Source: Owenia fusiformis (lineage: Eukaryota; Annelida; Polychaeta; Sabellida; Oweniidae). From it: a stretch of DNA of 64,000 nt. Under the pieces are notes generated by a model. That model had not been told where the DNA came from and ran no database searches. It saw nothing but the letters and a program-made list of their open reading frames with translations. The translations under genes and the position numbers were made by a program. Shown here one piece after another: positions 8,510 to 61,685 of the stretch (the first letter of the stretch is position 1; every line of letters begins with the position of its first letter). The stretch covers positions 21,498,822-21,562,821 of the forward strand of contig CAIIXF020000008.1 in NCBI GenBank assembly GCA_903813345.2. Reading direction: 5' to 3'.

Positions 8510-9740
8510 CACCACAATCTACAATCGGCACCGCGGTCAAAATCAAAAAACTATGACACCTCAGTCAACAAACTATGACAAAACAAACTATGCCACCCCA
8601 GTCAACAAACTATGACACAACAAACTATGACACAACAAACTATGACACCATAAACATAGGCAAGAAGCAAGAACACAAAATTCAACAAGTTATGATATCA
8701 TACTGAACATGACATCAAACTGTGATATTAATGTGAATAAACCATGACATCATAAATCTGATGACAATGACACAATTTACAAACAATGACACGCTATAAC
8801 ATCAGAAACTACTGCTCTATGACACATTGTCAAGTATAATCATAATTACGCATGAAATTAGTCATGCTTTGAAATTCTAAATCAATAAAGATTTGGTGAG
8901 ACACATGAATGCAATGAAGAATGATATAAGAGCACATGCATATGGCACTCGGCTTTACATAGCATCCAGTATTAGGTTCAAAGACATGTGCAATGATATA
9001 CTGTATGTATGTGCTTTAAGTCAACATGATAAACCATGACATCTCATTTCTGTTCAGCCTTGAGATGTTTCAGGTGAAACAGAAAGATGCTATGAGTATC
9101 AGAATGGCTTTAAGTAATAAAACCCAAATTTTAATAGTAAATGTTGTAAGTTATTACTTACACTAAATTTAAGTCATTTTACTATATGAAAATCTTATCT
9201 TTGGCAAAACTGAATTGAGAAATTTGTAAAGTGATATTTGTTAGTTCAAAACAGTTATTTCTGTTGGAAGATCAAGCCTGTTTATAAGCTCCCAAGAAAT
9301 GTGGATTACATTAAACCTAAAAAAATTCAAAGTTTAAATTGTGTTTAACATCACCATCCTTCTATGATTTGGCCCCTCAACAGGATGTTCAACATAATTA
9401 ACATTGAATGGCCTGAGTATAACTGCATCTGGATCAAATGCTTTGAGATGCAACATTCTCAATCATTCTGAGTCAACTTTTCATGACATTATGATTCATG
9501 AGACTCCATTTTAGCTATGCAGAGGGACTATTCTTCAGAGAGTATAAGCTGTGGATACTGTTTGTAATGTTTTATGATGTTGCAAACTGAAAATGTGTGG
9601 ATATTTGAGTTTAACTGTAATGTTTTATTCAGTAATTTGAGTATAGAATTACATGATATGAATCATTTCTCTAGTTATTGGACTGTGTTCAGAAATTGAG
9701 AATCATATCATATAGTTTTTATAGTTTAAGTTACAATATT
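8510..9740 (+). other. Probable 3' UTR and downstream flank of the MyTH4-FERM gene, with acaaactatgaca repeats
   Basis: From about 8495 to 8660 there are six or more imperfect copies of aacaaactatgacacc, and the stop codon itself lies in the first copy. Diluted versions (catgacatc, aatgacac) continue to about 8800. Possible polyadenylation signals (aataaa) occur at about 8883 and 9117. About 100 bp at 8990-9100 is the inverse of 2900-3000. No other gene is seen. Confidence 0.5.
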
Positions 9741-9743
9741 TTT

Positions 9744-10115
9744 AATTAGAAATATAGACCGAAGAGCAGAGGTACATGTAATATTGTCGAATACACCCCA
9801 CAAGGGTAGGCACAAACCTTTTCTGTACCCTGAACGACCAAAGGGAGTGAGAAGTTCGAAAGCTTTTGTGCCTAGCCCTAAAGGGTGTATTCGACGATAT
9901 TACACCTGCTCTGAGGTCTATACTACGATTCGAACATGAAAACTCACTAAAATGTTTCGAATATTCATAATGGTCCGCCATTACTACAGCCTGTCGTTAT
10001 GACATCACACATTACACGTATTACCAGGGGTATTGTTCGCAAATAAACCTTGGGTGAAATGTTGACTTTGTTAACAGTTTAAAGGAGTGAATACAGTCAT
10101 GTTCGAATTTCTAAT
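9744..10115. mobile_element. Palindromic MITE, copy 1
   Basis: The left part begins ttagaaatatagaccgaaga and contains a large imperfect hairpin. It reads gtaatattgtcgaatacacc…, then tgtgcctagccct…, then ggtgtattcgacgatattac. The right end closes with gttcgaatttctaa, so the outermost bases form a short inverted repeat (ttagaaat/atttctaa). A second copy in the opposite orientation lies at about 49439-49800. There is no coding capacity. It spans 370 bp. Confidence 0.75.
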
Positions 10116-10481
10116 ATATCTAAATGATTGTCTTTTTACAAAAATTGTTTAATTTCAAAAACAGAAGGATGTACAATAAGACATGAATTATTGAATTTCT
10201 GAACACAGTACAACTTTTCAACAATAAACATGTACATTGTTTACATTTGTATAATAAGCCTTTCTGTATATAATGGTAATATTATGTACATGTACTTCAA
10301 ATGATTTGTACTTAAATTGTTCTTTTCTTGCAAATATGATAAATAAACATTGATGACTAAACAAAATTAATGAATTAGAGTGAATTATTTTGAACTGTAG
10401 GTTATTTTTAAATGGAATACTGAGATTCATACAAAATTTTCGAACCATTTAGAAAAATATATATCAGCCTTTCTGCTAAAG

Positions 10482-11258
10482 ACAGATCAATCTGGTAGGT
10501 TCCAGTTTTCCTTTACAAACCTTATCTTATTACCAGTCCATACCTTATCTTATTACCAGTCCATATCTTATCTTATTACCAGTCCATACCTTATCTTATT
10601 ACCAGTCCATACCTTATCTTATTATCAGTCCATACCTTATCTTATTACCCATCCATACCTTATCCTATTACCAGTCCATACCTTATCCTATTACTAGTCC
10701 ATACCTTATCTTATTATCAGTCCATACCTTATCCTATTACCAGTCCATACCTTATCTTATTACCAGTCCATATCTTATCTTATTACCAGTCCATACCTTA
10801 TCTTATTACCAGTCCATATCTTATCTTACCTTATCTTATTACCAGTCCATACCTTATCTTATTACCAATCCATACCTTATCTTATTACCAGTCCATACCT
10901 TATCTTATTACCAGTCTATACCTTATCTTATTACCAGTCCATACCTTATCTTATTATCAGTCCATACCTTATCTTATTACCCATCCATACCTTATCTTAT
11001 TATCAGTCCATACCTTATCTTATTACCCATCCATACCTTATCCTATTACCAGTCCATACCTTATCCTATTACTAGTCCATACCTTATCCTATTACCAGTC
11101 CATACCTTATCTTATTACCAGTCCATACCTTAACTTATTACCAGTCCATACCTTATCTTATTACCAGTCCATACCTTATCTTATTACCAGTCCATACCTT
11201 ATCTTATTATCAGTCCATACCTTATCTTATTAGCAGTCCATACCTTAACTTATTACCA
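10482..11258. repeat. 23-bp minisatellite array 1 (about 32 copies) with a 40-bp leader
   Basis: Tandem copies of ccagtccataccttatctta plus tta (23 bp) run from about 10525 to 11258. Common variants are cc for ct and atcag or cccat for accag. A leader of about 40 bp (gatcaatctggtaggttcca…) precedes the array and recurs before array 2 at about 12536. Confidence 0.9.
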
Positions 11259-11260
11259 GT

Positions 11261-12545
11261 TTTTTTTTTTTTTTTAATATTCCAGTTTATTTCGATCAAT
11301 CATCAAATGTGTACATAAGAAAAATTGCCAAGGTTATTAGATAACATTAGCGGCAATTGTAACTATTTTGACAAAAAATATTGATTGATTAGGAAAATAC
11401 ACTGAACATTTGCAATAATATGGAATGTACTACTGTGTTTACTCTGCTTGCCCCACCCTCTACCTCAATTCTTTACCCTAGTTATTAAAAAGATCTTGAT
11501 CAAGAGCTTTAAAAGCTTGACTAGTGAAGTGAGCTGAAATCTCAATTAATTTTTCATTGACTTCAACACTTAGAGAATTGTCACCATACAAGAGAAAATC
11601 AGTTTTATTTTGGTTTGAAAAGTTTTCAAATTCACTTAAAAGATTTAAGTCTGTTAGCCCTGCAAGTAAAACATCTCTTTCATTCACAAGCAGTGGACAT
11701 TTAACCAGAAAATGCTCTGTAGTTTGAAACCTAGAACCACATGGACATTTAGGATCAGTTACTGAGACAAAGTTGTGAGAATATAGATGGCTATTCAAGA
11801 GGAGGCCAGCTCTAAGCCTATTAAAAACTATCTCAATATGTCTTGGCATAAAAATATTCATTTTCGAAGTTGATACAGAGACCAGGCTCATGCACTCTCT
11901 TACTGATTTTTTAAATCTTGAAATAGGTTGACCAACTCTGGATGTATTTGGAAGTTTATTCCATAGGGTCATGGATTTAAATAATGTGGACTTCTCACTA
12001 GACACACTAATCTGGTTTGGAATCCGATAGTCTGGCTGGGATCTTAAGTTTCTAGTATGAGTGATTTCATAGGAGCGAACTAAATCACATATGAAAGGTG
12101 GAAAACAATTAAACCGTGCTTTAAAAATAAATATTTTCAAATGTTCTTCTCTTCTAGATGCAAGAGATTTCCAATTTAGGGATGCAAATACCTTGTCAGT
12201 ACTTGATCCATGTATTGCACCAGATATCAAACAGGCTGCTCTGTAGTGTAACTTATCTAGAGCTTGGAGTTTGGTTAAGGAAGCTTTGTTGTAAATTATA
12301 TCACAATAGTCATAGTGAGGTATAAAGTAAGCATTATAAATTGTCTCAAGATGCTTGGCTGATAATTTTTTGCATAGAGCTTTCAATGGTCTGATTAAGT
12401 TGTTAATCTTTACAATTAATTGGTCGATGTGTGCATTGAAATTTAGTTTACTGTCCATGACTAATCCGAGGTGTTTATGCATTATACATTTGGGAACTTC
12501 TTCATCCCCTAAAAACAGGGGAGACTGATAAAGACAAATCAATCT
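11261..12545 (-). mobile_element. 5'-truncated LINE (non-LTR retrotransposon) with poly-A tail
   Basis: An uninterrupted minus-strand frame (11478-12542, 354 codons) encodes the C-terminal end of a non-LTR reverse transcriptase. It carries the thumb-like motif KHLGLVMDSKLNF, then NAYFIPHYDYCDIIYNKAS, RREEHLKIFIFKARF and a Cys-His cluster CPCGSRFQTTEHFLVKCPLL. The YxDD catalytic core is missing. The T-run at 11261-11277 is the poly-A tail on the minus strand, preceded by about 200 bp of 3' UTR. The same family occurs at 23995-25356. The open frame suggests a fairly recent insertion, but it cannot transpose by itself. Confidence 0.85.
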
Positions 12546-13045
12546 GGTAGGTTCCAGTTTTCCTTTACAAACCTTATCTTATTACCAGTCCATACCTTAT
12601 CTTATTACCCATCCATACCTTATCTTATTACCAGTCCATACCTTATCTTATTATCAGTCCATACCTTATCTTACCTTATCTTATTACCAGTCCATACCTT
12701 ATCTTATTACCAATCCATACCTTATCCTATTACCAGTCCATACCTTATCTTATTACCAGTCCATACCTTATCTTATTACCAGTCCATACCTTATCTTATT
12801 ATCAGTCCATACCTTATCCTATTACCAGTCCATACCTTATCTTATTACCAGTCCATACCTTAACTTATTACCAGTCCATACCTTATCCTATTACCAGTCC
12901 ATACCTTATCTTATTATCAGTCCATACCTTAACTTATTACCAGTCCATACCTTATCCTATTACCAGTCCATACCTTATCTTATTACCAGTCCATACCTTA
13001 TCTTATTACCAGTCCATACCTTATCTTATTACCAGTCCATACCAT
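12536..13045. repeat. 23-bp minisatellite array 2 (about 21 copies) with the same leader
   Basis: The unit is the same as in the array at 10525-11258 and it is preceded by the same leader (gacaaatcaatctggtaggt). The two arrays flank the LINE fragment. It ends at about 13045 in unique DNA. Confidence 0.9.
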
Positions 13046-13519
13046 ATACCATGGCCTTACTCTATCCCAATGGAACTTCATTCATTGAAAGTGTGTGAAT
13101 GTTAAAGGTTTAACTGTCATGTTTTATTAAGTAGTTTGAGTATAGATTAACATGAAATGAATTACTATAGAACCTGTGTATATTTGAACAGTCTTTTAAA
13201 AAGACTCAGTGTTGGTAGGTGTTCACTTTCACTAGGCCTACAGAGAGGGTAATTTATACAGAAGTCAATAGAGTATGTGCAGAGGAAGGGTGTCCACTAG
13301 AGAGAGGTGTTCACCAGACAGAGGTGTTTACTAGAGACATGAAATGACACATCAAATAGAAAACAGTTCTGTACTCTTATTTGTTGGATATTTCTCATTT
13401 GAGATAAATAAATAAACAATAGAAACTGGGAAATTTTTTATATTTAATTAGTAAATAATTCATCACGGCTTCAACCAAAGCATCATGGATTGCCCTGTAA
13501 GAACTACATAACATAAGTT

Positions 13520-15618: not shown

Positions 15619-18600
15619 TTAGAATCGTGACTGTTCTCGTTTCTGTGGATACTGGGCAGGATGGGGATTTTGTTGCATCTCTCGTCCATATCTATAGGGA
15701 ATATGTCCAGAGTTATCAGCACCTGTAATTTACACATAAATTCAATTAACATTTTCATATGGAGTACAATGATTAATATCAGACTTTTGACATAAAGAAA
15801 TAGTCAGTTTGAATTTTCAACTTACAGTGAAAATCACCATAATAATTTATTCAGAAATTCATAAACCAGGCCCGTAGCCAGGCGGTTCAGTGGGTTCAAG
15901 CGAACCCTCCTGGCCAAAAAATTGCAATTTTTCACAATTCTGAGCAATTTTCAAGTGATTTTGGCCACTTTCGGGCCAAAGATGTCAAAAGTGACCCCCC
16001 CTGGAATTTTTCAGAACCCCCATGGCTGCATGGCAAATCCTGCCAACGGGCAACAGTTGTCACACCCAATTATCAAACCCCATTATACTTATGAAGGTCT
16101 TAATCATATGCAAAGTACATAACAAATGGTCATCTGTATTCCACTGATCTTGACACACTTAACAAGCAGGCTATTTGATCAGAGATTTAACATTAAATAG
16201 GATCATAATCTTGCCTGGGTAGTTCCATGAAGGGTTTTCCTACAAAATATAAAATAGAAGTTGTTATACAAGTTGTATTTTCGCATTGTATAAAGCAATC
16301 AAGTTTATTTTGTCACATGATTAATGTTATATCAATTCACTCTGATACATAAATGTTGTTTTAGAATCCTTTCTATTACTCTCGTTATTTTGTGTTGTTT
16401 TGTCATATGTGATTATATTTGTTGTCCCTTGTGCTTTTTAAACATGTAGTATGATGTAGTTGTCCCTTATGCTGTAGTGTGATGTATAGTTTGTGCCCTT
16501 ATCTGTATTTTAAACATGTAGTTTGATGTATTGTTATGTCCCATACGCTTTGAAACAAGTAGTGTGATATGTGATGTTGAGCCCCTTATGCTGTTTAATA
16601 ATATAGTGTGATGTATTGTTATGCCCCTTATGCTGTTTTAACATGTAGTGTGATGTATTGTTATGCCACTTATGCTGTTTTAACATGTAGTGTGATCACA
16701 CCGGAATAGCCTGACAACGTATTAAAGTCAGATACCATTGTTACGAATGGCGCACATAACCGTCGCTTCAACTGTTTAATCATTTCATGGGATTTTATCG
16801 TCGCTAATTCTGTGAATGTATTAAGCTCTTGTGATAATGTATCATATGAAATCCCATTTTCGATCGAATTGGGTCGTGAATCGCCACAATATAGCGTCTT
16901 TAATATCGTCAATGACAACGAAATCTGAATTTGAGTAATTTAGAAAGACAACAGCATATTGTAATTACAGTGTCAGTTGTCCCGTATTTCATTTTGATCG
17001 GTTGAATTAAAGACTTTATTTCGATGGTAGAACATTATTAACTGTACAATGAGTATAAAGACACTTTGATCGATTGTTGTTCCAGAGGAATTTAGTCTAA
17101 GTGCTCTATTAAACATACAGTTTATGAAAATCTAATTGAAGCGACGGTTATGTCCGCCATTTGTGACAACGGTATCTGACTTTACCGTTGTCAGGCTATT
17201 CCAGTGTGGTGATGTATTGTTGTTCCTTACGCTGTTCAAAGATGAAGTGTTATGTAAATGTATTGTTGTGTCCTTATGTTGTTCATTGGAGAGATGGTAA
17301 GTGTAAATTGGATAATCAAAAACATGTATGTGTTAAAGTCTTAAATTATCAAATTATGTGAAACTCACATTTCTTACATTCCTTCTGCCACAACAAACAA
17401 CTGCACAGCCCAATATAGAGGATACAATGCACAGAAAACCACTGACAACTCCAATGGCAACCAATGCCCCATTAAGACCGAGCCGGAGGGACTGAAAAAT
17501 TGTTCACTTGAATTATCCTTGACACAAACTGATTAAGGTTGCTAATGAAACATGTTGATGGCAGTTTGCTCGGCTGTTGTATAGCCATTGGACTCAATGC
17601 ATTTGGACTGACCATTCCTCTGAGGTGTTGTTTCAAACTCTACCCAAGATGCATAGCATCAAGTGCAAAGTTTAAGAAACAACGCCTGACGAACTCCTAT
17701 GCAGTGTCTCGGTATAGACACTGCGGCGGGCAGATTATGGAATCCCCAAAATTTGGGGAAGATAGTCTCCCTTTTTGTCACAGATGTACTTGTTTTTCAC
17801 ACAACTTATAAAATATATGTTCTTTTATGTTCACCAAAAATTATTTTGTCAAAATATTCCAAAATCAATGAAATATAAGAGGAAATCCCCGCGGAAGGAA
17901 TTCTGAGTAAAAGTTGTGTTGATAAAATTTACCGCACGTGTTGTTTATTAGTTAATACGCGCAATTCAACCAATGAAATTGTCTGAATTTTACAATCACG
18001 CGACCTGAGCATGGGACTAGAACCAATCACGTCAGTTGTTTATTACGATGTTACCATGCTTACGGTGAGATACCTGCCCGCCGCAGTGATATATCACTGC
18101 ACGGGAGTTCGAATGCCTGAATGGAATGAATCAGCCACAATGCGTCTTGGGCTAAAATTCTCTTCACACATTGCAAAATAGTTAATAAAATATCACTTGA
18201 AATACAGTAAAACCTGAGTTAGTGAACACATATAGTGAACACCTATCAACAGTGAACTTTTTTTCGGCAAAACCTTTTCACCCATTGACCCCCATGTTAA
18301 AGTACAATCCTGTAGTGAACACCTACCTACTGTGAACAGTGAACACAAAATCTTGGCAAAATTAATAGAATTATCCTGTCTCTAGTGAACACTAGATGTA
18401 CAGTGACATGTGAATTTCAAAAATGACATCACTTTGACTGAATTTTGGATATTTAATCGTGTAAATCAAGATTATTTCTTCTTGCATCTAGTCTATTGCC
18501 CTTTTAATTATTTTTGGCAGGTAATATAAAAATGTTCACTAGAGACAGGATAATTCTATTGATTTTGCCAAGATTATTCCCTCCTCCCCTTTAGTACCCT

Positions 18601-20296: not shown

Positions 20297-23200
20297 CTGG
20301 GTAGTACCTCTCAGTGTTTGCCTGCAAAACATGTATATTAAATGTATATTATATTTTTGCGTAATAGTTCATAAAGAAAGACACACTCTCTGTTTAAGAA
20401 GTAATTTTCATTATTGCAGCTGAATTTCAAAATGGCCATAGTTTTTCATAAAACTGCAATTGCATTTTCAATATGGCCACTCATTTCAAAATGGCCACCT
20501 TTGAAGTCATCTTTGATACCAGTAGACGAAGTTGGTTCAAATTTTGCATGCACATGCTTTGGGGACATAGCAGCTGAATTTGAAAATGGCCATGATTTTT
20601 CATAAAAATGTAATTGCTGATAATGTCTTTTGGATAAAAAAAACTCTTTTAAAGGAGGCATTATTAAAAAATGGCCACCTCTTTAGTCATCTTTGATAAC
20701 TCAAATACCAGTTGATGAATTTGGTTCAAATTTTGCATGCTCCTGCTGTATGGACATAGGAATCTGCTCGTGAAGGAATTTTCAAGATGGCTGGCGCTCA
20801 ATTCATAACGGCTGTAATGTAATTTTTGTAACTTTAACTGCGGTTATAGGATTTGGTCAATGTTTTCTAGGCTAATGCCAAATGGGCATGAGACCTCTTT
20901 TCAAGGATTTCCATGACCACTCAATTCAAAATGGCCGTAATCTTTGATAACCAAAATACGAGTTGACGGATTTGGTTCAAACTTTATATGGCCATCTTAT
21001 TTCATAAAGATTTAGTTTTCTATAGGCCTAACTCAAAAACCAATAGCCAGATTGTATCTGCCGATGCCTTTTATTGGCATGTGACTCTGGTCAAGAAGAA
21101 ATGCTTAATTCAAAATGAATGCCATGTCTGAGGAAAGCTATGAGTTTTCTGGTATCACAAATACCAGTTAGTTGCCACATTTGGTCCAAAGAACCACGGA
21201 AGGTATCGCAACACATATCAGACAGTCATATATTGGAGTGTGACTATTTATTGAGGATTTAAACAGGTGCATACATTATCCCCAGGAGAAGTATTCATAG
21301 AGATGATAAAAATTAGAGTTTGAGACAGGGAAAGTGCAAACACCCACCATCCCCCCCCCCCCAAACAGTTCTTTCTGAAAGGTTGTCTTGGTTATATAAA
21401 TAAGCACTATACTAGTGCCAAAAGGGAAAGGACCAAAAGTTGTAATGGAACTTAGCAAGAAAAAGCAAACTCTAAGTGCATACCAGTCAAGAAAAACAAA
21501 CCCCATATATTGTGTTTCCACTTCATTTATTTATTCATTGCCCTCAATTAGAAGCAATTAAATGGAAATCAAGTAAGTGTAAATCTCTACTTACATTCCT
21601 CCTGCCACAACAAACAACTGCACAGCCCAATGCACAGGAAACAATGCACAGAATACCACAAATAACTCCAATAGCAAACAATGCCCCATTAAGACCGATC
21701 CTAGGTGACTGAAAACATATTTGCATCAATTCTGTTTAAAGTTATCAAATAGATTTCAGTATGCTCCATATAAATGTTTGGAATCCGTGTCCTGGTGACC
21801 GGATAGACAATGGTGTTGCATGTGTACTTTTTAACGGGGTCAACCCAGTTGTCCGAAACCCAGTTGTCCGAAATCCAGTTCTCCGAAACCCAGTAGTCCG
21901 AAATCCAGTTCTCCGAAACCCAGTTGTCCGAAACCCAGTTGTCCCGGGGTGTACCCCTTTTTAACAGCCCAACCATGTACATTACAAGGCATGAGATTTT
22001 ACTGAAACTGTTAAATGTGATGTCAAATAGTAGCATTACATCTTCTTTATCTTAAATTTGCCTCAGCTATTACAATTTGCCTCACTCTGCCTCACTATGC
22101 TCGTGGCAACATTTTTTAACTTACACCCCTTTCATAAGATTTTAGTACATCCCAAATCCCAATCATCTGCAAAAATCTTAGGTGCACTAGAGTTGTATCA
22201 TCCTGTCTCGACTAAGCTTGTATTCGCGAATGCAACTAACGACCGTCGGCTACCAGATTACCCTAATATTTGACCAACTCATTTAAATATGAATGCAATA
22301 GTGGCAGGTCATATTCATATTCAAATGAGTTGCCTATAAACAGTAGGTTAATCCGGTAGCCGAGAGCCGAAAGTTGCTTTCCCGAATACAAGCTAACATC
22401 GCAAGAGTGCTAAACTGGGAAAATGCATTGTTATCAATTTTCATTATCTTAAAGCACGGGGATAAAGCAGACCCGATGATGCAATGAGCTTGCTCGGCGG
22501 TATCATGACGGTGTAACGTGTCTTAATGTATAAGTGTGCTCGGCGGTAGGTTCAAACAACGCGGATCCTCAAAGCATGTGCTCATGGTATATTCGTGTTT
22601 TAACACCCGTGTTAAAGTATATAGGGAGAACAGAGAACCATTGATAATTCGATAGATTGATTGGATTCATTCGTGTACTTACCGGATTTAATGATTTTAA
22701 TATATTTAATGGAGAATCCTTGTATATGTTAAATTGACCTTGTACTGCCCCTGGCATTGTAACTGCACTGTAACTCAGCAAGGCAATGGCAAAGAATATT
22801 CCACTAACACTCAGTACCAAGAGTGTTGTAATCTGCAATTGACAATGGAATTTTATGCTTAAAAATGCACAAAACAAGGCAATATTTTATTTTGTTTTTA
22901 AAACCAAGCTATGATCTTGACATTTTTATGAGCTTTGGAACGTCACCTTCCAAAAGAATTATTTTCACAGTGAAAGTAATCATTGAATTCCGTGTGTAAG
23001 TGTGTTAATTTATAAGTGCGTATAAATTATGCCCACGGTATGAATAAAATTATGAATGCAGTATGAATAAAAATGGTATTTCAATGCATTTCCTGGTCAT
23101 CGCATACCATGGTATGACCATATTCTTTTTCCACTTTGTAAATTCTGAGCAATGATTATCATTAATTTGTTAAAACCGTGTATGGTGATCGAATTATTAT

Positions 23201-23994: not shown

Positions 23995-25356
23995 TTTTTT
24001 TTTTTTTCATTTCTCATTTATTCCAAATATAACATAAAATACATTACAATATTATTGCCTACGTTTTTCAACATTGTCGGCAATATACAAAACATATAAA
24101 AATGGAAACAATGAAAATACAATAGATAAGGTACATAATATTAATGGCAGGGAATGTTAGAGGCTTTCAGGGGGGGGGTTAATCTAAAATATCAAGAGCC
24201 TGGCAGATGTAATGGCTAACTATATGAATAATTTGTTCATTATCAGTTACAGTGAGATTTCTGTCTCCAAATAATAAAAATTGAATTTTTTCATGAGAGT
24301 TTAAATTTTGGAAACGATTGAAAAATCCTAAGGTTTTTAGTCCTGCTAGGAGAGTGCATCTTTCTTGTTGCAGCAGAGGGCAGTTTAATAAAAAGTGATG
24401 CGTTGTTTGTTGTATGTCACCACATACGCAGAAAGGGTCATTTACTGTCACAAAGTTATGGGAATATAAATGTGCTTTTAGAATCAGTCCAGCTCTAAAT
24501 CTATTGAACAGAATTTCAATTTTCCTTGGCATTGTCATATTCATTTTAGTAGTGGATACTCTGGAGTCAGGGCTCATATTTCCTCTTACTAACCTTTTAA
24601 ATCTAGATATTGGTTGGCCTTTCCTGTCCTCATATGGTATGTCATCCCACAGGGTCATAGCCCTGATAATGGTTGACTTTTTGAACGAATTACTGATTGG
24701 AAAGGGGCCGATTTGGAATATTCTCGTATGAACTAACTAAATCACAAATGAAAGGAGGGAAACAATGGTATCTAGCCTTGAAAGCAAAAATTTTAAGATG
24801 TTCTTCTCTCCTGGAAGCTAACGTTTTCCAGTTGAGTAATGATAAAACTTTCGATGTGTTTGAACCGTGTATTGCTCCTGACACATGGCAAGCTGCTTGA
24901 TAATGAAGTCTATCCAATGTTAATAGTTTTGAAGTTGATGCCTTATCATATATTGTATCACAGTAGTCGAAATGTGGTAGTATAAATGAATTATATATAT
25001 TCTCTAGGTATTTACTGTTTAGCATTTTAGTTAACTTTTTCAATGGTCTCATGAGAGAGATTACTCTCTCTATGAGTTGGTCAACATGTGAATTAAAGTT
25101 TAGATTTTGATCAAGTACTAAGCCCAGGTGTTTGTGTTTGGTGCAACTAGGAATCACATCTCCTCCTAGTTTTAAAGGGACTGGCTCTTGTAATAGTCTT
25201 CTATTTCCTGATACAAAGGTTAAGTCAGCACTTTTTTGTGCCTTAAAAGTCATCTTCCAAGTCATGGCCCAATTTGCCAAAATGTCAAGATCTCTTTGAA
25301 GTGGTTGGTGAATGTTTAAAATCTGATCAAAACTGTCATGTGCACTATAAATAGAT
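23995..25356 (-). mobile_element. 5'-truncated LINE, same family as 11261-12545, with TSD
   Basis: The minus-strand RT C-terminal region runs from about 25350 (FDQILNIHQPLQRDLDILA) through KHKHLGLVLDQNLNF, NSFILPHFDYCDTIYDKAS and RREEHLKIFAFKARY, down to the Cys-His cluster ending at 24181. One frameshift lies at about 24660-24710. The poly-A tail is the T-run at 23994-24008. The direct repeat TATAGGGAAT flanks the insertion at 23985-23994 and 25357-25366. It landed about 80 bp upstream of the coding start of MS4A copy B. Confidence 0.88.
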
Positions 25357-32800: not shown

Positions 32801-35800
32801 AACTGAGGCAACTGCCTCATGCCTCACATAGATAAATGGAGTACCTTGGCACGAGGTAAAAAATGAACTTTGAATGAAAACATGAAATGACATCTAAGTA
32901 TATGCTGATTTTCCATTGATTTACATGAATAACACAAGTACATGCAAATTAATGAAATGTTATTAGTTGATAATGATGTTGAAGTCAGCGCATAGGGCAA
33001 ACTACTAAAGAGTATATCAAAGATATCATGGACAGTTCTTAGGAATTCTATTAAGAATACCATGCTGTAAAATCATTTCATCTTTATGTTGGACTGGAAT
33101 TGCTCAAACAAAGTCGCTTTTTCTATCTACATATGTATTTAATATCAGTAGAAATAACCCTCATATTGACAATGTTACAAGGTGTGCTATGTGATCTTCC
33201 GTATCCCGCACTCTGCATTCTCAACACATATATTTGCACATGGGAATAACATATTGTTTTAAACATCCTTGATATGGAGCCAGGAATCTTTATATGTCAA
33301 AATTCAAATCCATGATACCATTTCTACAGCTCTGATTCTGGCTTAATGCAGGATAAAAATGCAAGGTGAAATATCTCCTCTGATTTAGGTAAACCAACAA
33401 CATGGGTAGGGGATCGAAAGGGAATATTTAAACAAACATAAGCTTAACTGAACACATACCTTGGTTGTCATGACTTTGAAACATTTATCACTAATGATAC
33501 ATTTCTTTTTGTCTATCCTGCCGGTGCCTAGCAACTCCATCATACACTCATCACTAAGCTCCTCTGACATATATCCTATAAGCAAAATACTTATAAACTT
33601 ATCTCTATGACAACGGCAATTGCCTTAATCCAGAGAAATAATTCACTGACATTCACATTCTGTAATGAAATATGTTTCTACTTTATAATAATTAATTTGG
33701 ATTCATAGTGTCAAATCAAGTGTATTTAATTTTTCAATTGCTAAATATAAATATATGCCAATATTTATGACATATGACATGGTTAGTAAGCCCATTAAAG
33801 TGAAGCCCTTTATCCATCGATCATAACTCTCCATCCAAAGCATATGAAAAACTCATACTAACTTGTAGTAGACTGATTAGAGTAGATTGTATTGCTATTT
33901 TGATTTGTCTTGTTAAGTCCAAAATGACCATCTCAAAAGACCGGAATTTCCAGAAATATTGAGATCTCTCTAAAGTGCAACTTGATTGAAAGGTATTTTC
34001 TCAACATTTCTTCCATAAGTGGAAAGTTGTTGCTTTTTAGTTTATATCTTTTGTTTTTGCCAATAATGCATGTTTCTCAATACATGTATACAATCTTTGA
34101 TGCTCAGTATGACGATGGAAGTAATGATATAGACCAACTTGTCCTAGTTTATACTGTTAAATATATATTTTCTGTAAACTAAAAAAATGTGTCTTACTTA
34201 GTTCCCTCTTTTCAATTACATCTTTGCTCCAACGTCTTCCAGGATCAATTCTTCTTGGTGTCCTCCACATTCCGTAAGGCGTGGACACCAATTCCTTCAT
34301 GTTGTGGAAGTAATCAATGTTATTCTTAGCAACAAATGGAAGTGATAAGTCAGAAATGTTCTTTGCAGTATGTAAAAATTCTTGCAGTTTAGACAATAAC
34401 TGTTTTTTCGTTATCTCGAAAGTGGGTTGTGGTGGGATGTTGGAGAATTTTCCCTTGTTGTCGTCTTCTATTAATAACTTCACTTGACCTAGAAACAAGA
34501 TGAGAGATCATTTTATATGTAATTTATGCAATACAGTTTGTATCCAAGTGTATAGTCACTGGTCAGGCATGAGGCAAATAAGGAAATAACCTTGCCAAAA
34601 TCTTATAAGGAAATAATTATTCGGGTTTCTTTACATCATAACTCGAAGTGAGATATTCTTGCAAAACTAATGTTAGAATTCATTGTCCACTATCTGGTAG
34701 TGGTGTCAATTAACCGCTTGAGCATTAACCGGTTAACCGGGGGTTTTTACCGGTTAAAGTCGGTTAACCGGCGGGAAATTTGAACTGATAATTTCAAATG
34801 AAATCTTCATCTTCGATCTTGAAAGTTGAAAAAAATTTGAAAAATGATATATCGGCGTTTATTTTTTACGTTCATCAAGCTTTACGCTATTCTATGTAAG
34901 TGAGCGCGGGAAAGCAATGTGGCAGGGATTAAAGTTGCTGATTGGATGTTTGTAAGGAGTGATCGGAACTATCACATGTATGAGTAGCTCACATGTAACT
35001 GACGCTTGAAAAACAAACAGATTAAAATGCAAAGTAAGTGCGGGAAAGCAATGTGGCAGGGATTAAAGTTGCTGATTGGATGTTTGTAAGGAGTGATCGG
35101 ACCTATCACATGTATGAGTAGCTCACATGTAACTGACGCTTGAAAAACAAACAGATTAAAATGCAAAGTAAGTGCGGGAAAGCAATGTGGCAGGGATTAA
35201 AGTTGCTGATTGGATGTTTGTAAGGAGTTATGGGACTTATGACATGTATGAGTAGCTTACGTGAAACTGACACCATAAAACCAAACGGATTAGCATGCAA
35301 AATAAGCGCGGGAAATAACATAATTATACACGGTCAACTAACCGCCCATAAAAACTCAGACCGGTCAAGGCATTATCGGCGGTTAACCGGTTAACCGGTT
35401 AATACTTGACACCTCTACTATCTGGGGGATTTCCGCTTTGGGGATCAGGTTCAAGCATAAAATTCAGAAATTTTAACATTATTTTTTATGACCATTTTCA
35501 ATATAATTTTATTCCTAGCATTATTGGACTTGTTGATAAGACGCCTGTAGTGGCCCCTATAGGCTGCTCAGAAATGGACTTGGGGCCATGAATGGCACTT
35601 AAGAGTGATTTATTTTCATTTCAACACTAAAAAGGAATCATTTGGCATTGGTTTGCTCGATGTACTCGAGATGTAATTTAAACGTTAACTTAGCGCCCCC
35701 TATAAGCTGCTAAGAAATGGACTTGGGGCCATGAATGGAGTGATTTATTTTCATTTCAACACTTAAAAGGAATTATTTGGCATTGGTTTGCTTGATGTAC

Positions 35801-36912: not shown

Positions 36913-37457
36913 TTTGAATTTATGTTACACGAGAACACATTTTGCGCAAAAACTATTGAGTCGCGCCGTTGCACCATGGAGATCTATTCCCTAGGGATAG
37001 AGGCCCGTGTGGTTGTGTCATAACCTCTGTTTTATAAGAATAATTACGAAATAGATCGAATGGTTCATGTTTGCCTCTTGGAACAAGCGAGAAGTTTTCA
37101 TATCACCAGGACACACTTCGTCCCCGGGATTTCGTTAAAGACTAAGTAAGGGCAACGCCCACTTACCCATGAGTTATATTTATCATAAATGCAGGCATAC
37201 TGTATGGGTGTAGCCAGCTTTCAGTCAGGATGAGGGGTGTGATTGCCCAAAAATTGAGTTAGAAGCTTCAAATAAAATGCATTTAAAGATCTTTCCTTCT
37301 TTTATCCCCCCATCTAATTATCTAATGGTTCTATTTTTATTGGTGGGATGCTTCCCACCCATCGTAACCTCCTCCCTGACTACTATATATTGTGAACTGT
37401 TTTAAGCATGAATGTCTTGTATCAAGGACCTTGTTCAATGGATGAAGGCGGTAAAAA

Positions 37458-48839: not shown

Positions 48840-50060
48840 ATCAACACTTTTCCTTATTAAGAGCCTTGTGGAAGGGGGCTCAATGGATAGGAACTGGGAT
48901 GAGGTCACATTTAAAGGTCAATATGACCCGGGATGGAGGTCACATTTAAAGGTCAATATGACCTGGGATGGAGGTTACATTTAAAGGTCCATATGAACTT
49001 GGATGGAGGTCACATTTAAAGGTCAATATGAACTGGAGTGGAGGTCACATTTAAAGGTCAAAATGACCAGGGATGGAGGTCACATTTAAAGGTCCATATG
49101 AACTTGGATGGAGGTCACATTTAAAGGTCAATAAGATCTAGTATTGAGATCACATTTAGAGGTCAATATAAACTTGGATGGAAGTCACATAGAGGTAATT
49201 AACATTAACAGGTATGGAGGTTACATTCAAAGGCAATATGAACTGCGATGGATGGAAGTCATATTCAAAGATCAATATTAACGGGAATGAGGTCACATTC
49301 AAACGTAAATATTAGAGGAATGAGAAGGTCATATTCATAGGTCAATATTAGCGAACATGAGAAGGTCAAATTCAAAGGTCAATATTAACGACAATGAGAA
49401 GGTCATATCCAAAGGTCAATATTAACGGGAATGAAGTCTGATTCGAACATGACTGTATTCACGCCTCATATAAACTGTAAACAAAGTCAACATTTCACCC
49501 GGGGTATATTTGCGAACAAACCCCCTGGTAATACGTGTAATGTGTGACGTCATAACGGCGGGCCGTAGTAATGGCGGACCATAATGAATATTCGCAATAT
49601 TTTGGTGAGTTTTCATGTTCGAATCATAACATAGACCCCAGAGCAGGTGTAATATAGTCGAATACACCCCTTAGGGCTAGGCGATAAGGCTTTCGAACCC
49701 CTCACTCCATTCGTGCGTTTGGGGTACAGAAAACGTTTGTGCCTAGCCCTGCGGGGTGTATTCGACAATATCACCCCTGCTCTTCGGTCTATATTTCTAA
49801 ATTCAAAGGTCAATATTAACAGGGATGAGATTGTCACATTCAAAGGTAAATGTGAACGGGAATGAGGTCACGATCAAATGTGAACATGAGAGGAATGAGG
49901 TCACATTCAAATGTAAACATTAACGGGAATTGGGTCACATTCACACGTCAATATTAACGGGGATGAGAATGTCACATTCACAGCTCTGAATCAGAGTGGA
50001 TTTCAATCAGATTCAAATATCAAGATGTGAAGTAGGTCACATAACATGAGTATATTTAAA
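48840..50060. repeat. ~34-bp minisatellite (ggtcacatttaaaggtcaat), interrupted by a MITE
   Basis: Units of the type ggtcacatttaaaggtcaat plus atgaacttggatgga are tight at 48900-49130. They become more divergent (attcaaaggtcaatattaac) up to 49437, then resume at 49800-50060 after the palindromic MITE. It lies just upstream of the amidase gene start (48469, minus strand). Confidence 0.85.
49439..49800. mobile_element. Palindromic MITE, copy 2 (opposite orientation to copy 1)
   Basis: It begins gattcgaacatgactgtatt and ends ggtctatatttctaa. The internal hairpin pairs gtaatatagtcgaatacacc with ggtgtattcgacaatatcac. It is homologous along its length, in reverse, to 9744-10115. It is inserted in the 34-bp minisatellite. 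Confidence 0.8.
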
Positions 50061-54121: not shown

Positions 54122-54968
54122 TGTAAGGATAAATTAATACAAAAATCTCACAAGCTGTGTTACTTTAAAATTGTGTGTGTATATAAATAAAATCCGTTTA
54201 AAAATAAACTATCTTATGGTTTGGAGAATTGATCCGTACGTCTTGTCACTTCAAAAACTTTCTTCTTCTGGATTCACGGAGCACTGACACAGTATTTAAC
54301 CCCTATAATCTTTGCCTGAGTTACCTTACACAATGCCAAACAGAGCTAATTAAATCATTGCTTCTGAAGGTTATGTGTTATGAGACATTGAGCCGCCGAG
54401 TAAGAAGTATAATTAGTCTCCAGGATCTTGATTTCTGCAAATGTACAAACGATATTAGGTAATTAACTTTTGACACTTTCATACTTTGTTTACCTTTTCA
54501 AAAGATTAGCTAGATAAGTGAAACTCGCTCAGATGTTTGGATGAGATTGCATTCCGGGATTGCATCAAAGGTATGATCGTATCAATGTGCTAAATTCCCC
54601 AGAGCGGAACTGTTTGATGAATTTCTTTGATTCAGAACAAAGAAAGATTGTCAAAAGAGATCGAAAGATTATGACAGCAATTAAATTCATGAGCTAATCT
54701 GATCAAAGGTAACCACCTAAAATAATAACATTTCATGTGTTTCGATCAGCTTGTCTGCATCTCATTTGCATTTATGGGTTAAGCAAGTGAGAGTGGGCAA
54801 GGGGGGGGGGGGGGGGGGCGGTCGAGTCCGGGGTCGGGATTTTTCTAGATTTTATATGGGAATAATATACCACTTTGTTCCCCTCGCATTCGTTCGACTT
54901 CGCTTCTTAAACAGAAAAAGACGTTTTTAAAGTCTCGGTGTTTGAACTAAGATTACAGAGACTATAGG
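54122..54968. other. Upstream region of the decapeptide-repeat gene, with a G-homopolymer
   Basis: This is expected to hold the promoter and 5' UTR of the minus-strand gene that starts at 54121. I see no clear TATA box or initiator. A run of about 19 G lies at 54801-54819. A short stretch tattttgaccct recurs within the large element that follows. No other gene is seen. Confidence 0.4.
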
Positions 54969-57900
54969 TAGTGAGGTAGCACCGGGGCGAAAGTTGTCAA
55001 AATTGGTTTTTTTGACCCTAAAAAGGAAAATTACAGGGGGTACATTATCATCATTGAATAATTCATTCAGTTAGTCTTCGATCATCATAATGATTTTATT
55101 GAGAGTTGATGAGATCATTTTAAGGTAGTATGCAAAGTTTCAATGGTCTGTCACTCGTGGTTGCCATGGAAACCACAATTTTTGCTGAGAAAATCCTTAA
55201 TTTTGGTAAAACCTGTACCTGTACATAATATAGAATGTGGATTATTTTTCAAATCAACAGATATCAGAACATTTTAGCACTCTAAAAATCACCAGGGCTG
55301 TCCAAACATTTGTTTAAAGAGAGAGAATATTGCAATTTATATGACTGGTAAGTGTCAAAGACCATACAATTACATAAGTGGTCAAAAGTGGGCGTCGCCC
55401 TCATAATAGTAGTTGATTGCCATTCTCTATAAATACAGAGTTTTACTTGACTTTTGAGATACATTTATATTGAATTTATTTGGTTATACTTAATATCAAG
55501 TATTTTTACATCTAAGTGTTATAGTTATTGCATGGGGATACAGGGGGGAGGGGGGGGGGGGTAGTAACAGAATTGGGAGCGGGCAGAGCTTATCAGCCTT
55601 AAGTGTAAATCTCATCTACATGGTTCTAGATTTCATAGGGTACAGCTTCTGGGTCGTATTATATTCATCTCAATATATAAGATATTAGAATTTACATGGT
55701 TGGTAAGTGTCAAAGACCATAGAATTACACATGTGATCAAAAGTGGGCGTCGCCCTAATCATTGTATATGGTTCATTCTCTATAAATACAGAGTTTAACT
55801 TGACTTTTGAAGTACATTTACTTAAAAACATCTTTGATTTATAGTTAATGTCAAGCATTTCTGGTAAGTTATATATGTACATCTAATTATAATAGTTATT
55901 GTCTGGGGGTGGAGGATGGGGGGGGGGAGAGTAACAGAATTGGAAATGGGCAGAGCTAATAAGCCTTAAATGTAAATCTCATTTACTTAATTCTGGATTT
56001 CAAGGGGTGCATCTTCTGGGTCTTCTTCACATTCATCTCAATATATGGGATATTCCAATTTACATGATTGGTAAGTGTCAAAGACCATACAATTACATAA
56101 GTGATCAAAAGTGGGTGTTGCTCTAACAATATATTGTTATCATGTGGGAGAATATAAGTATACCACTACACTTGCAGATTTGAGAGTCATTCAGTTGAGT
56201 GTATCTATTTGGCGCTCCACCTTTGCCTTTTAAAAAGGTGCTATTGCCCCTTCTGCATGACACTTCATCTGTGAATGTGTGAAGTGCTAGGAAGGCTGCA
56301 TATATGTCAGGGTCTATATTGGAGGAAATACCACTGACATCAGTCTTCTTTTGTTTCCAACTCAAGTATCCAGCAGCACACTTTGCTGTATTTGCTTTTT
56401 GTTTTCATCATCATACAAGAACTAATTCCAATCTTTAGGGACTCTTGTTTTTCTACCTTAAATAGGGCAAGGTGTCCGTCCCCTCTTTCAGGTTCCTTTA
56501 TAGAATTTTTCATGTAATTATCACATACAAAAACTAATCAATCTGCAATTGTAGAATCTTGAAAAAAGTCTCCGCCAGATCCAGAAACAAAACTACCTTT
56601 CAAGTTGAATTATGATTTGGGATATTTGGGGTTTGTTTTCTTTATGATTTGTATACATTTAGAAGTTTTCCTTTTCTTGCTGGGTTCTATTACAAATTTT
56701 GGTCCTTTCCCTTTGGCACTTGTGGTACATGTTCATGCATAGGGATGGGTTTCTCTGTTCTTGCAAGAAGTCCAGTCAGTGTTCCTAGAGCCCAAGGCAC
56801 AGGGCTCAATAGGAACTGCAGGAGACATTCTAGGCTAATTTTATGTTCCTTAGCAAGATCGAAGCTGTTCAAAGATGTTTCATTCAGAATGAATTTGAAC
56901 CATCTTATAAGCTTGTTCTGAGCACTTTTTTACTGTCACTGTCACTGCTGTAGTTTGCTGCTATAGTTTTCAATTTCATATGTCTTATTAGATCATGAAA
57001 TCTTTTTTTCAACTAATCTCAGATGGTGGTATCTCTTCATGCAATTTCCCCTTTTGACTAAAATTAGATGAGATCTGCAGCGACATCATTTGGCACAGAT
57101 TTTCCTTATGATACATCGGAGAGATGACCTTCATCCTCAATGGTAAATGGATCAAGAAAGTCTTTGATTGCGGTTTTTGTCATCTTTATGTCTTTTTCTG
57201 TACTTGCTATTTGTGCCTTTCCAAGGTCATTATGGGTGTCACACTCGTCTCATCTCTAGATAATCTTCCTAAGTTGGTCTTGAAGGACTGTCTGATTGTT
57301 ATAACCATCTCATCCATATAAAGCACTTATTGTTTGTATGGCCCATATTGCAAATCCTCGTAGTGAACCACCAGATGGACTTGAATGGAAACTAAATGAC
57401 TCCATATCTTTCCAGTGGGTATTGACTGATATCCCATACAAGAGATTGGTGATATAGCAACACCAGGAGATGAATCAGAAAACTCCAGAAGATGTACCCT
57501 ATGAAATCCAGAATTAAAAAGATGAGATTTATACTTAAGGCAGATGAGATCTACACATTCTAATTCTGTTACTACTCACCCCTGCCCCAATGTAAAAACT
57601 ATAATACTTACACAGATGTATTTACCAGAAATGCTTGACATAAATTAAAATAACAGCAGTTCAGTATAACTATGAATGTATCTCAAAAGTCAAGTTCAAT
57701 TTTGTATTTATACAAAGAACCAATCATCTACTATTGTTAGGGCAACACTCCTTTTGATCATTTATTAATATGTAATTGTATGGTGTTTGACAAATCCTGT
57801 AAATTGTAATATCCCATATATTGAGATGAATATGAAGGGGACCCAGACGATGTACTCCATGAAATCCAGAACTATGCAGATGAGATTTATACTTATGGCT

Positions 57901-58970
57901 GATTACCTCTGCCCCCTCCCTATTCTGTTACTACTCTCCCCCATCCTCCCCCGAGAACTATTACAATTTGATGTGCATTACTAACCAGAAATGCTTGAAA
58001 TTAAGTATAATCAAAGAAGTTGTAATGTAAATGTATCTCAAAAGTTAGACTCTGTATTTATACAGAATGAATATATGATAAGGGCGACGCCCACTTTTGA
58101 TCACTTGCATAATTCTATGGTCTTTATACATACCAATCATGCAGAATTATAATATCCTATATATTCAGATGAATGTGAAGAAGACCCAGAAGATGTACCC
58201 CATGAAATCCAGAACTATGTAGATTAGATTTATACTTAAGGGTGATTAGCTTTGCCCTCTTCCAATTCTGTTACCCCCCCCCATCTACCCCCTCCCCCAT
58301 GCAATAAGTATAACACTTACATGTACATTATTTACCAAAAATGCTTCATATTTAGTATAACCAAAGAACATCATTATAAATGTATCTCAAAAGTCAAGTA
58401 AAACTCTGTATTTTTAGAGAATGGCAATCATCTACTATGATGAGGGCGACGCCCACTTTTGATCACTTGTGTAATTGTATGGTCTTTGACACTCCCCAGT
58501 TATGTTAATTGCAATATCCTTTATATTTAAATAAATGTTTGAACTGCCCTGGTAATTTTGAGAATGCTAAAATGTTCTGATATCTGTTGATTTGAAAAAT
58601 AATCCACATTCTATATTATGTACAGGTACAGGTTTTACCAAAATTAAGGATTTTCTCAGCAAAAATTGTGGTTTCCATGGCAACCATGAGTGACAGACCA
58701 TTGAAACTTTGCATACTACCTTAAAATGATCTCATCAACTCTCAATAAAATTATTATGATGATTGAAGTCCAACTGAATGAATTATTCAATGATGATAAT
58801 GTACCCCCTGTAATTTTCCTTTTTAGGGTCAAAACCCCAATTTTGACAACTTTCGCCCCGGGTACGGCGCGTCAGACAAACATTTTCTGAAGTATCACAT
58901 AAAAATACATAAGGAACAAGTAATTTCAATTTGTTCAGAAGCGGGTACATTTTTCGGTGCTACCTCACTA
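54969..58970. mobile_element. 4-kb long-inverted-repeat element with tandem subrepeats in both arms and a central coding relic
   Basis: It starts tagtgaggtagcacc and ends ggtgctacctcacta. About 340 bp at 54981-55320 (ggggcgaaagttgtcaaaat…) is the near inverse of 58540-58865. Inward, each arm carries about three ~360-bp units. The left units hold aagtgtcaaagaccatacaa and gtgggcgtcgccc at 55350, 55705 and 56073. The right units hold the inverse, gggcgacgcccacttttgat, near 58080 and 58440, plus a weaker one near 57740. G-rich or C-rich runs mark each unit. The unpaired centre (about 56120-57500) holds minus-strand coding relics. Only the right arm has an extra ~110 bp between its outermost 15 bp and the long repeat. 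Confidence 0.82.
56123..57240 (-). pseudogene. Coding relic in the centre of the 4-kb inverted-repeat element
   Basis: Three minus-strand fragments in collinear order, in different frames with stops between them. About 57130-57200 reads AIKDFLDPFTIEDEGHLSDV. The stretch 56690-56920 reads LNSFDLAKEHKISLECLLQF followed by LSPVPWALGTLTGLLARTEK. The stretch 56123-56400 reads AKCAAGYLSWKQKKTDVSGI followed by DPDIYAAFLALHTFTDE. They resemble parts of one large protein of a type I recall as uncharacterised, repeat-associated proteins in marine invertebrates, with a PVPWALxTxxGxxxKT motif. I cannot give a curated family name. The gene is dead here. Confidence 0.5.
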
Positions 58971-61685
58971 ACTAACTACCCCACTCTGCGCGCAGTGTAC
59001 CACTTTTGCAAATGCCCTTGCAAAAAATCATGCCCATCAGCATCACCCTGGCAAATACAGTAGTTAACAGGGAAATAAAAATCTCAGACAAAATCTTCAA
59101 GTGACCTTGTGCATTTTATATTTTATTTCAAATTATGACATGCAGGTGATTATGGTCTTTCGATTTATACTTTAGTTAGAATATGGTACATTGACTGCCG
59201 ATGTTAAAAACATTGGCGCGGTAACTGGGACGGTCGTTGTGTTGGCGGGAAATTCAAAAATTTGAAAACAAATTTAATCCTTAATTTTATTTCAAAAATA
59301 TGATTTTCGTTTTAATTCTTCATGGGTCTTAAGTTATTTCTTTGTATGCCATACATGTTGCCATTGGTGTTTTTTTCTACTTATTCCGACTCTCAGCAGG
59401 GGGTTATTATGCATCAAAACTCGTGAAAAAGTAAATATACTTATTAAATATAACTAGGACAGTAATAAAAACCACATTTCACATACATTTGACTGAGGGA
59501 CCAAAAGTCCATATACCCGGACACATCCTTTTAGTTCTTTGAAAATGTGAATTCTAGGTCGGTTACATTTCCCATACACTTGCGGATCTGGGGGGGGGGG
59601 GCAATTACTAAATACCTTTTTTAAACCACATTTCTAGATGCAATTTTACATGTAGACTTCAAATATGATATCTCTTAAACTAACATTTGAATATTTAATG
59701 AAGTAAATCAAGATTATCTTGTATATTAGACCAATTTTCAAATTTGGAAACATTCACTTCGTGAGAGGAGGGGGGGGGGGGTTGTTACTCAAATCATCTG
59801 CTCATGTTATACCTCAACAAAACTATTTCAGTTTTGACAATATGTATATATATTCTATGATAGATGATAAACTTAACATCTATTCTTATGTACAAATTAA
59901 AACACTTTCTCCAACAATGTTGTAGATTCCCTTGCAAATAAAAATGTGTGTCAATAATCTCTACACTTATGTACAGTGGGACAATTATCCCATATACATA
60001 AGGGTTGTGTACTGGGAGGTTTTGAATCCAGGTTTTATCCCAAGGGAAATATGTGTATTTCACAAGGGACTGAAGGAGATACACATGTTTCCTAAGGGAT
60101 AGACCCTGGATCCAAAACTGACTGTACATAAGAGATGTATTCCATACCCATTGAGCTTCTTGGTATAATTCTACCTTTAAGATTCCAGAATATTAAAAAA
60201 TGGATTTTTTGTAGCATTATTTCAACAACTTAGTTAAAAAATTCCTATATTTAGATTTTAAAAGTTAAATTTTTCAAAGACAACCATACCAAAAAAATCA
60301 TATTTAGATTTAAGTTAAATTTTTCAAAAACAACCATTCCAAATAAGAAATTATATTTAGATTTTAAAAATGAAATTTTTCAAACACAAAATGAAAAATT
60401 TTATAGTCATTACTTTTTGAATCAATATCAAAAATCATTCTAAAATTGTGGAGTCCGGGATGGATCATACAGCCTGCATATCCCAGACCTCAGAGATAGC
60501 AGGATATATACAGAAAGTATCCATCCTGTTCTACAGATGCACTTTATTTTCCCTAAGATATGTACCTAGAACCTCAGTAGGTAATAGGTATGGAATATAA
60601 ATGAATACACAGAGTGCTTTCTCAAACCTTTTCTAGATTTTAAAACAAATGCTTACAAAATAAACGATTCAAACTTTACATCTTGACATGTGGTTTGTTT
60701 CTGTATTATGTAAAACTTATAATCTTAAAATAAGTATAATCCATTACTAGATACTGTATGACATGTTTTGACTTCTGTTTAGTAGAAGGTGAGCATAAGA
60801 AATTTAAATGTCTCTGGCTGAAACCAAGTCATTCAAAACTACAACAGGTCTCGACATTAAATCAGTCAAAAAAAGTAAATTTCATATTGAAGTAATATAT
60901 TTGCAACTAAACAATATTTGGAATTGAAGTCCCAATGAAACTGCTATTTCTGTTGTCACATTTTCCTATGATGGACATGAAATTCAAGACCCAGTTTTCT
61001 ATATTGGTTCATTCATATCTTGTTTAACTAAAATAAATCTCAATTGTTTTTTATACAAGGTCCAACCAACTTAAATCAACATAGTAACCGTTGGTCATAA
61101 ACTCATGTCTCACTAAGTTAAAATCAGATAAAATAAATTCTTGACTGAGATTTGTGCACATAAACATTATTTAGGGTAACTTCAGACCCCTGAAACTGTC
61201 TTCCAAGAAGACATTTGTCTTTTCTGTACTTGTATGGTGACATTTCATTGGATTCCTACTAATCAATGTCATCCTTTGAATTATTGAATAATTTTCTCGA
61301 AATGGCCATGCTATATAGCAATTGAAAAACTGAAAGTCCATTGTCAGTTTTAATGATTTAAATTGCATTGTTTTGATGTTAACAATATCAAGGAGTGGAT
61401 AGTATCATTTTGTATCTATTACTTTGATTTTTAAATTCTTCAGTCATACCAATCGTAATAATGATTCCACAGAAATGGCTGCCAGTCTCCATGTCCATAT
61501 ACAGTAATTATATCACTATCCAATCACATCCATATACAGTAATTATATCACTATCCAATCACATCCATATGCAGTTCACATTCCTCAATCACTGACACCA
61601 TTGGTTGAATATGCCAAGACATGACAGCGCAGACCAGGGAAATGCTTGTGAAGATGGTACACTTCTGTTGAGTGAACATGGGATG
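58971..61685. other. AT-rich flank, including the probable NXF1-like 3' UTR and small repeats
   Basis: No gene is seen. Small structures: G-runs at 59591-59602 and 59770-59780, and an imperfect hairpin at 60015-60118 (ttttgaatccaggttttatc / gatagaccctggatccaaaa). About three ~55-bp units lie at 60240-60400 (agattttaaaagttaaattt). A direct duplication of about 33 bp is at 61495-61560 (catatacagtaattatatca twice). The stretch just below 61686 is expected to be the NXF1-like 3' UTR. Confidence 0.45.

Follow-up and report, generated by a model that had tools for sequence, protein, structure and literature searches.

A four-kilobase inverted-repeat element with tandem-repeat arms in Owenia fusiformis, probably a degenerate foldback transposon

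Is the four-kilobase inverted repeat found in the genome of the annelid Owenia fusiformis a transposon, or a segment that was duplicated in place? The element lies at 54969-58970 of the window, a 64-kb stretch of contig CAIIXF020000008.1 (assembly GCA_903813345.2) with 35% G+C. Here we establish the anatomy of the element, the relative divergence of its parts and the asymmetry in repeat number between its arms. Long inverted arms that contain internal tandem repeats, the structure by which foldback elements are recognised, were found, and the element is probably a degenerate, non-autonomous DNA transposon of this architecture.

Termini and candidate target-site duplication

An earlier note on this DNA had reported a mirrored terminus of 15 bp. 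The terminus is present, and identity extends over 16 bp (TAGTGAGGTAGCACCG) at both outer ends, at 54969-54984 on the plus strand and 58955-58970 on the minus strand. With up to three mismatches allowed, these are the only two TAGTGAGGTAGCACCG sites in the window; shuffled sequences carried 0.22 sites on average, and 2 of 100 reached two. Lengthening the repeat by 4 bp gives terminal inverted repeats that match at 19 of 20 positions, TAGGTAGTGAGGTAGCACCG at 54965-54984 (plus strand, inner 16 bp exact) and TAGTTAGTGAGGTAGCACCG at 58955-58974 (minus strand, from the pattern scan and a boundary test). Directly abutting these ends is ACTA, a 4-bp direct repeat (54961-54964 and 58975-58978) and a candidate target-site duplication. 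When the boundaries were shifted symmetrically by up to 6 bp from the mirrored termini, it was the only flush repeat of 4 bp; three other placements gave 2 bp. In 20,000 trials with random window flanks, a flush repeat of at least 4 bp arose by chance in 5.85% of cases with any allowed shift and in 1.19% with non-inward shifts; a simulation of the same kind gave 10.97% for at least 3 bp.

The length of the duplication bears on the superfamily. Foldback structures usually belong to the Mutator superfamily (Phantom/FB type), a special case of the foldback transposon proposed here, and Tm1, which has composite repeat arms, is placed in Mutator/Foldback in the available part of its description (PMC3169594). 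On the other hand, flush repeats did not exceed 6 bp for any pair of boundaries up to 30 bp from the termini, and those of 6 bp are not located at the mirrored ends. The 8-10 bp duplication of Mutator/FB elements was thus not seen in this single copy, although decayed or recombined copies can lack one. Pfam scans of the middle of the element found neither a Mutator domain nor any other, and we regard a Mutator assignment as unlikely. The 7-bp duplication of Galileo (P superfamily) was likewise not seen in the single copy; chimeric Galileo copies also lack it.

Arms and tandem subrepeats

Inside the termini, each arm begins with an outer domain, at 54985-55307 on the left (plus strand) and 58539-58858 on the right (minus strand). 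About 340 bp of near-identical inverted sequence had been claimed, and the alignment of 54969-55307 with 58970-58539 bears this out: 324 of 336 aligned bases (96.4%) are identical, the 16-bp terminus included. A second alignment pairs 55010-55507 with 58337-58834 at 94% complementarity over 498 nt. On the right, 96 bp that have no counterpart on the left (58859-58954, ±3 owing to a shared CCG) separate the mirrored terminus from the arm. Because the left junction has CCG in common with both sides, a deletion on the left by microhomology is plausible; the alternative is an insertion on the right. When the right end was folded as DNA with the additional bases included, the z score was -2.44, and 3 of 200 shuffles folded equally well; we draw no conclusion from this.

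Further in, the arms consist of tandem subrepeats. On the left (plus strand) these are L1 (55308-55662, 355 bp), L2 (55663-56030, 368 bp) and L3 (56031-56141), a truncated remnant of about 111-120 bp. On the right (minus strand), R1 occupies 58177-58538 (362 bp), R2 57835-58176 (342 bp) and R3 57467-57834, for which the unit alignment took 57460-57834 (up to 375 bp). Full-length units thus span 342-375 bp, with pairwise identities of 74-88%. Three subrepeats of about 360 bp had been reported in each arm, which is correct for the right arm; the left has two full units and one remnant. Aligned in register with MAFFT, L1 and R1 are 86.8% identical, L2 and R2 80.3%, and L3 and R3 87.6% (113 columns). 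In a tree of the six units, L3 groups with R3 (support 97), L1 and R1 are separated from the others (88), and the placement of L2 and R2 received a support of only 49. We infer that three or more units were already arrayed before the arms diverged, and that most of the third was later lost from the left array.

The core gtgggcgtcgccc, which the earlier note had described as recurring, is exact in four of the six units; L3 differs from it at three positions and R3 at more than three, and one further copy, with a single mismatch, is located beyond the element, at 37150-37162. Part of the terminus, AAGTTGTCAAAATTGG, was also found in four of six units with 2-3 mismatches. The window contains nine AAGTTGTCAAAATTGG matches (two termini, four in units, three elsewhere) where 2.4 are expected, and none of 100 shuffles reached nine. 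Six direct tests of the terminus against individual units gave P values from 0.017 to 0.52. Since these per-unit tests were mostly non-significant and the units are copies of one another, secondary transposase sites in the arms are a lead only. A segment common to the outer domain and R1 (55201-55232) reached P 0.023 among 12 outer-domain tests and was not counted.

Uneven divergence and origin of the element

The two parts of the arms have not diverged equally. The outer domain is closer between the arms than L1 is to R1 (96% versus 86.8%, Fisher P 4e-6, with identities taken from two aligners), and the in-register subrepeats as a whole are 80-88% alike (MAFFT). In a gap-lenient alignment of the whole arms, identity was 95-100% for the outermost three windows of 100 bases and 85-95% further in, so that the contrast is smaller and its direction unchanged. 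The suggestion of a decaying coding part between arms that remain matched was therefore half right: it describes the outer domain, while the subrepeats have drifted apart and the coding character proposed for the middle comes from a resemblance in motifs that has no database match.

This pattern bears on another explanation, namely that a segment carrying tandem repeats underwent a local inverted duplication and is not a transposon. A single copy is visible in the window, its flanks show no long duplication, and other local repeats abound in the window, all of which would suit such an origin. Had both arms arisen at once by a single inverted duplication and then decayed neutrally, an outer domain at 96% next to units at 80-88% would not be expected, unless conversion is added. 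Both arms also stop flush at a common terminus with the candidate ACTA duplication, although the arms of a duplication would end together as well. We consider a local duplication improbable. The uneven divergence would be expected if the two ends had undergone gene conversion with each other, or if the outer domain were the younger part.

A foldback transposon is favoured by the mirrored terminus at both outer ends, by the flush ACTA candidate, by arm domains ordered as in Tetris and Galileo F, by the in-register grouping of units 1 and 3 across the arms, by the unequal number of units, which Galileo copies also show, and by the closer match of the outer domain. Several observations weigh against it. 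The Pfam scans of the middle identified no transposase, and a search limited to the window found no further copy in its remainder except a 100-bp piece of the middle. The longest word common to the 60-bp flanks is 5, which is ordinary (random mean 5.9), and the right-hand ACTA sits in a run of ACTA, which further weakens the evidence for a duplication. If, as is probable, the element is a foldback transposon, a transposase supplied in trans would have recognised the mirrored termini, and cut-and-paste movement would have left a short target duplication, probably of 4 bp. Unequal exchange may then have expanded and contracted the subrepeats in each arm, while the outer 320 bp or so of both arms would have been kept alike by gene conversion or be more recent in origin. 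The middle would be a dead gene or captured filler.

The middle region

The middle (56142-57466, about 1.3 kb) is degenerate and possibly the remnant of a gene on the minus strand. Three collinear coding fragments had been proposed on that strand. The length of the open frames gave this no support: the longest open stretch has 101 codons and lies on the plus strand, with 22% of 500 shuffles matching it (P 0.22), and the three longest sum to 267 codons, which 12% of shuffles reach (P 0.12). Pfam recognised no family in the middle, either in five separate pieces or in a joined reading and three others, and a PDB sequence search with the middle gave no match. A P-type transposase with a THAP domain was also not found among the Pfam results for the middle, which a non-autonomous copy may do without. 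In viral contigs, 30 stretches fit the pattern of a 79-amino-acid open frame but none was confirmed as a relative, and the exact core and terminus patterns had no match there.

A separate 100-bp piece at 21411-21510 (plus strand) matches 56622-56723, within the middle, at 82.5% identity (86.6 bits in a sensitive search, whose control with the reversed element gave one chance match of 36.3 bits). The middle therefore contains repeated DNA. Compared by codon position (33 sites each), the two copies show 3, 5 and 6 mismatches, with no clear coding signal. In the neighbourhood of this copy, a 15-bp tandem array (AACCCAGTTGTCCGA) occupies 21842-21944, about 330 bp away. A 127-bp pair that is 88% alike lies at 17373-17498 and 21590-21715, the second member adjoining the copy; these may be duplicated exons.

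Possible link to Academ

Peptides from the minus-strand middle appear to resemble a protein, widespread among invertebrates, that carries XPG/FEN1-like motifs and is presumably associated with AcademX; this is a lead and not evidence of membership. The element could thus be a decayed AcademX-type transposon, or have been mobilised by one, with the middle as the remnant of an XPG/FEN1-like nuclease gene; we hold this special case of a foldback transposon to be a tentative possibility. Two stretches, 57009-56956 and 56857-56720 on the minus strand, are collinear with a version of the protein that we composed as a query (joint E 2.3e-4), a score that is biased because the query was written after the fragments had been read. 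The best single stretch reached 31.2 bits, compared with at most 24.3 bits for 100 shuffled queries, 97 of which gave a match. A third stretch in order, 56528-56484, aligned weakly and was not significant alone (E 6.5), and the C-terminal (recB) half of the query had no match in the element and none above the shuffles (best 22.7 bits). The lack of Pfam and PDB matches for the middle is shared by the query protein itself, for which the searches returned only Intein_splicing below the Pfam cut-off (E 0.021) and a ribosomal protein in PDB (E 0.78), both taken as chance. Peptide strings of this protein family had no match in a literature search.

AcademX is described, in the available part of the source, as encoding a nuclease and making 3-4 bp duplications (PMC10045372). 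The ACTA repeat falls within this range, with a chance of 1-6% for at least 4 bp and 11% for at least 3 bp. Of the DDE transposase with XPG-type nuclease that characterises AcademX, the middle offers a resemblance in motifs and no library match. Amplification of Academ has been reported in bivalves, with a mean length of 5.6 kb (PMC10294476, in part). At 1.3 kb, the middle seems too small to have held a complete Academ gene. Academ-type motif patterns were absent from viral contigs, and two scans of genome contigs gave no match and one match. The single match, in a bacterial contig, faces a 361-codon open frame on the other strand and is covered on its own strand by no listed open frame of at least 60 codons; it was for these reasons taken as chance and rejected. 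That an Academ-lineage transposon evolved foldback arms of about 360-bp tandem subrepeats independently seems rather doubtful to us. If true, Academ would join Mutator and P among the superfamilies reported as sources of foldback architecture.

Comparison with known foldback elements

By analogy, the anatomy of the element is of a known kind, because the arms of Tetris and Galileo F are built alike and those of Tm1 similarly; the statements that follow rest on portions of the cited sources. The proposed resemblance to FB and Galileo holds for the architecture, and Tetris of Drosophila virilis is closer still (PMC4079207). Its flanking domain is followed by tandem repeats of a few hundred base pairs and a variable middle, units within complete copies are 87% alike, and alleles differ in unit number. 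Tetris, likened here by architecture and not by sequence, differs in its 8-10 bp duplications, its units of about 220 bp and a middle described as having no apparent coding capacity (PMC4079207). Galileo subfamily F, of the P superfamily, likewise has long, internally repetitive arms with tandem repeats of about 210 bp in unequal number, and some chimeric copies lack matching duplications; it differs in its 7-bp duplications and its P-type transposase, for which the element has no match (PMC3573991). Tm1 (Mutator/Foldback) of root-knot nematodes shares composite arms with tandem repeats, 93% alike on average, whereas its units measure 13-15 bp and its duplications mostly 9 bp (PMC3169594). AcademX, whose duplication length and nuclease are given in PMC10045372, may share with the element the candidate 4-bp duplication and the protein motifs, but the description at hand, with which the element was compared in place of a real Academ sequence, does not mention tandem-repeat foldback arms for Academ.

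It has been argued for Tetris that transposons can give rise to satellite DNA through foldback arms with tandem subrepeats (PMC4079207), and such arms also cause inversions, as in Galileo (PMC3573991). To find the architecture in another animal, and possibly in another superfamily, would support its repeated origin; a single decayed copy alone alters little.

Other features of the window

Three matches above the Pfam cut-off came from open frames elsewhere in the window: an amidase, a FERM domain and the TAP C-terminal domain known from nuclear RNA export factors. Together with the many local repeats, they are in keeping with animal nuclear DNA. Two arrays of one 23-bp unit (ACCTTATCTTATTACCAGTCCAT), at 10519-11260 and 12571-13047, flank a 366-codon open frame at 11481-12578, and 10473-10995 is 91.6% alike to 12525-13047 in direct orientation. 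The frame had no Pfam match; it resembles what we presume to be the end of a non-LTR retrotransposon. Part of it (11751-11930) is 73% identical to 24434-24616, within open frames at 24182-25355. A 35-bp tandem array at 48887-49430 adjoins one half of a 373-bp inverted pair (9740-10108 and 49441-49807, 87%), whose halves lie 40 kb apart. Finally, 34898-35315 holds a 134-bp unit repeated in tandem about three times, with 92% matches.
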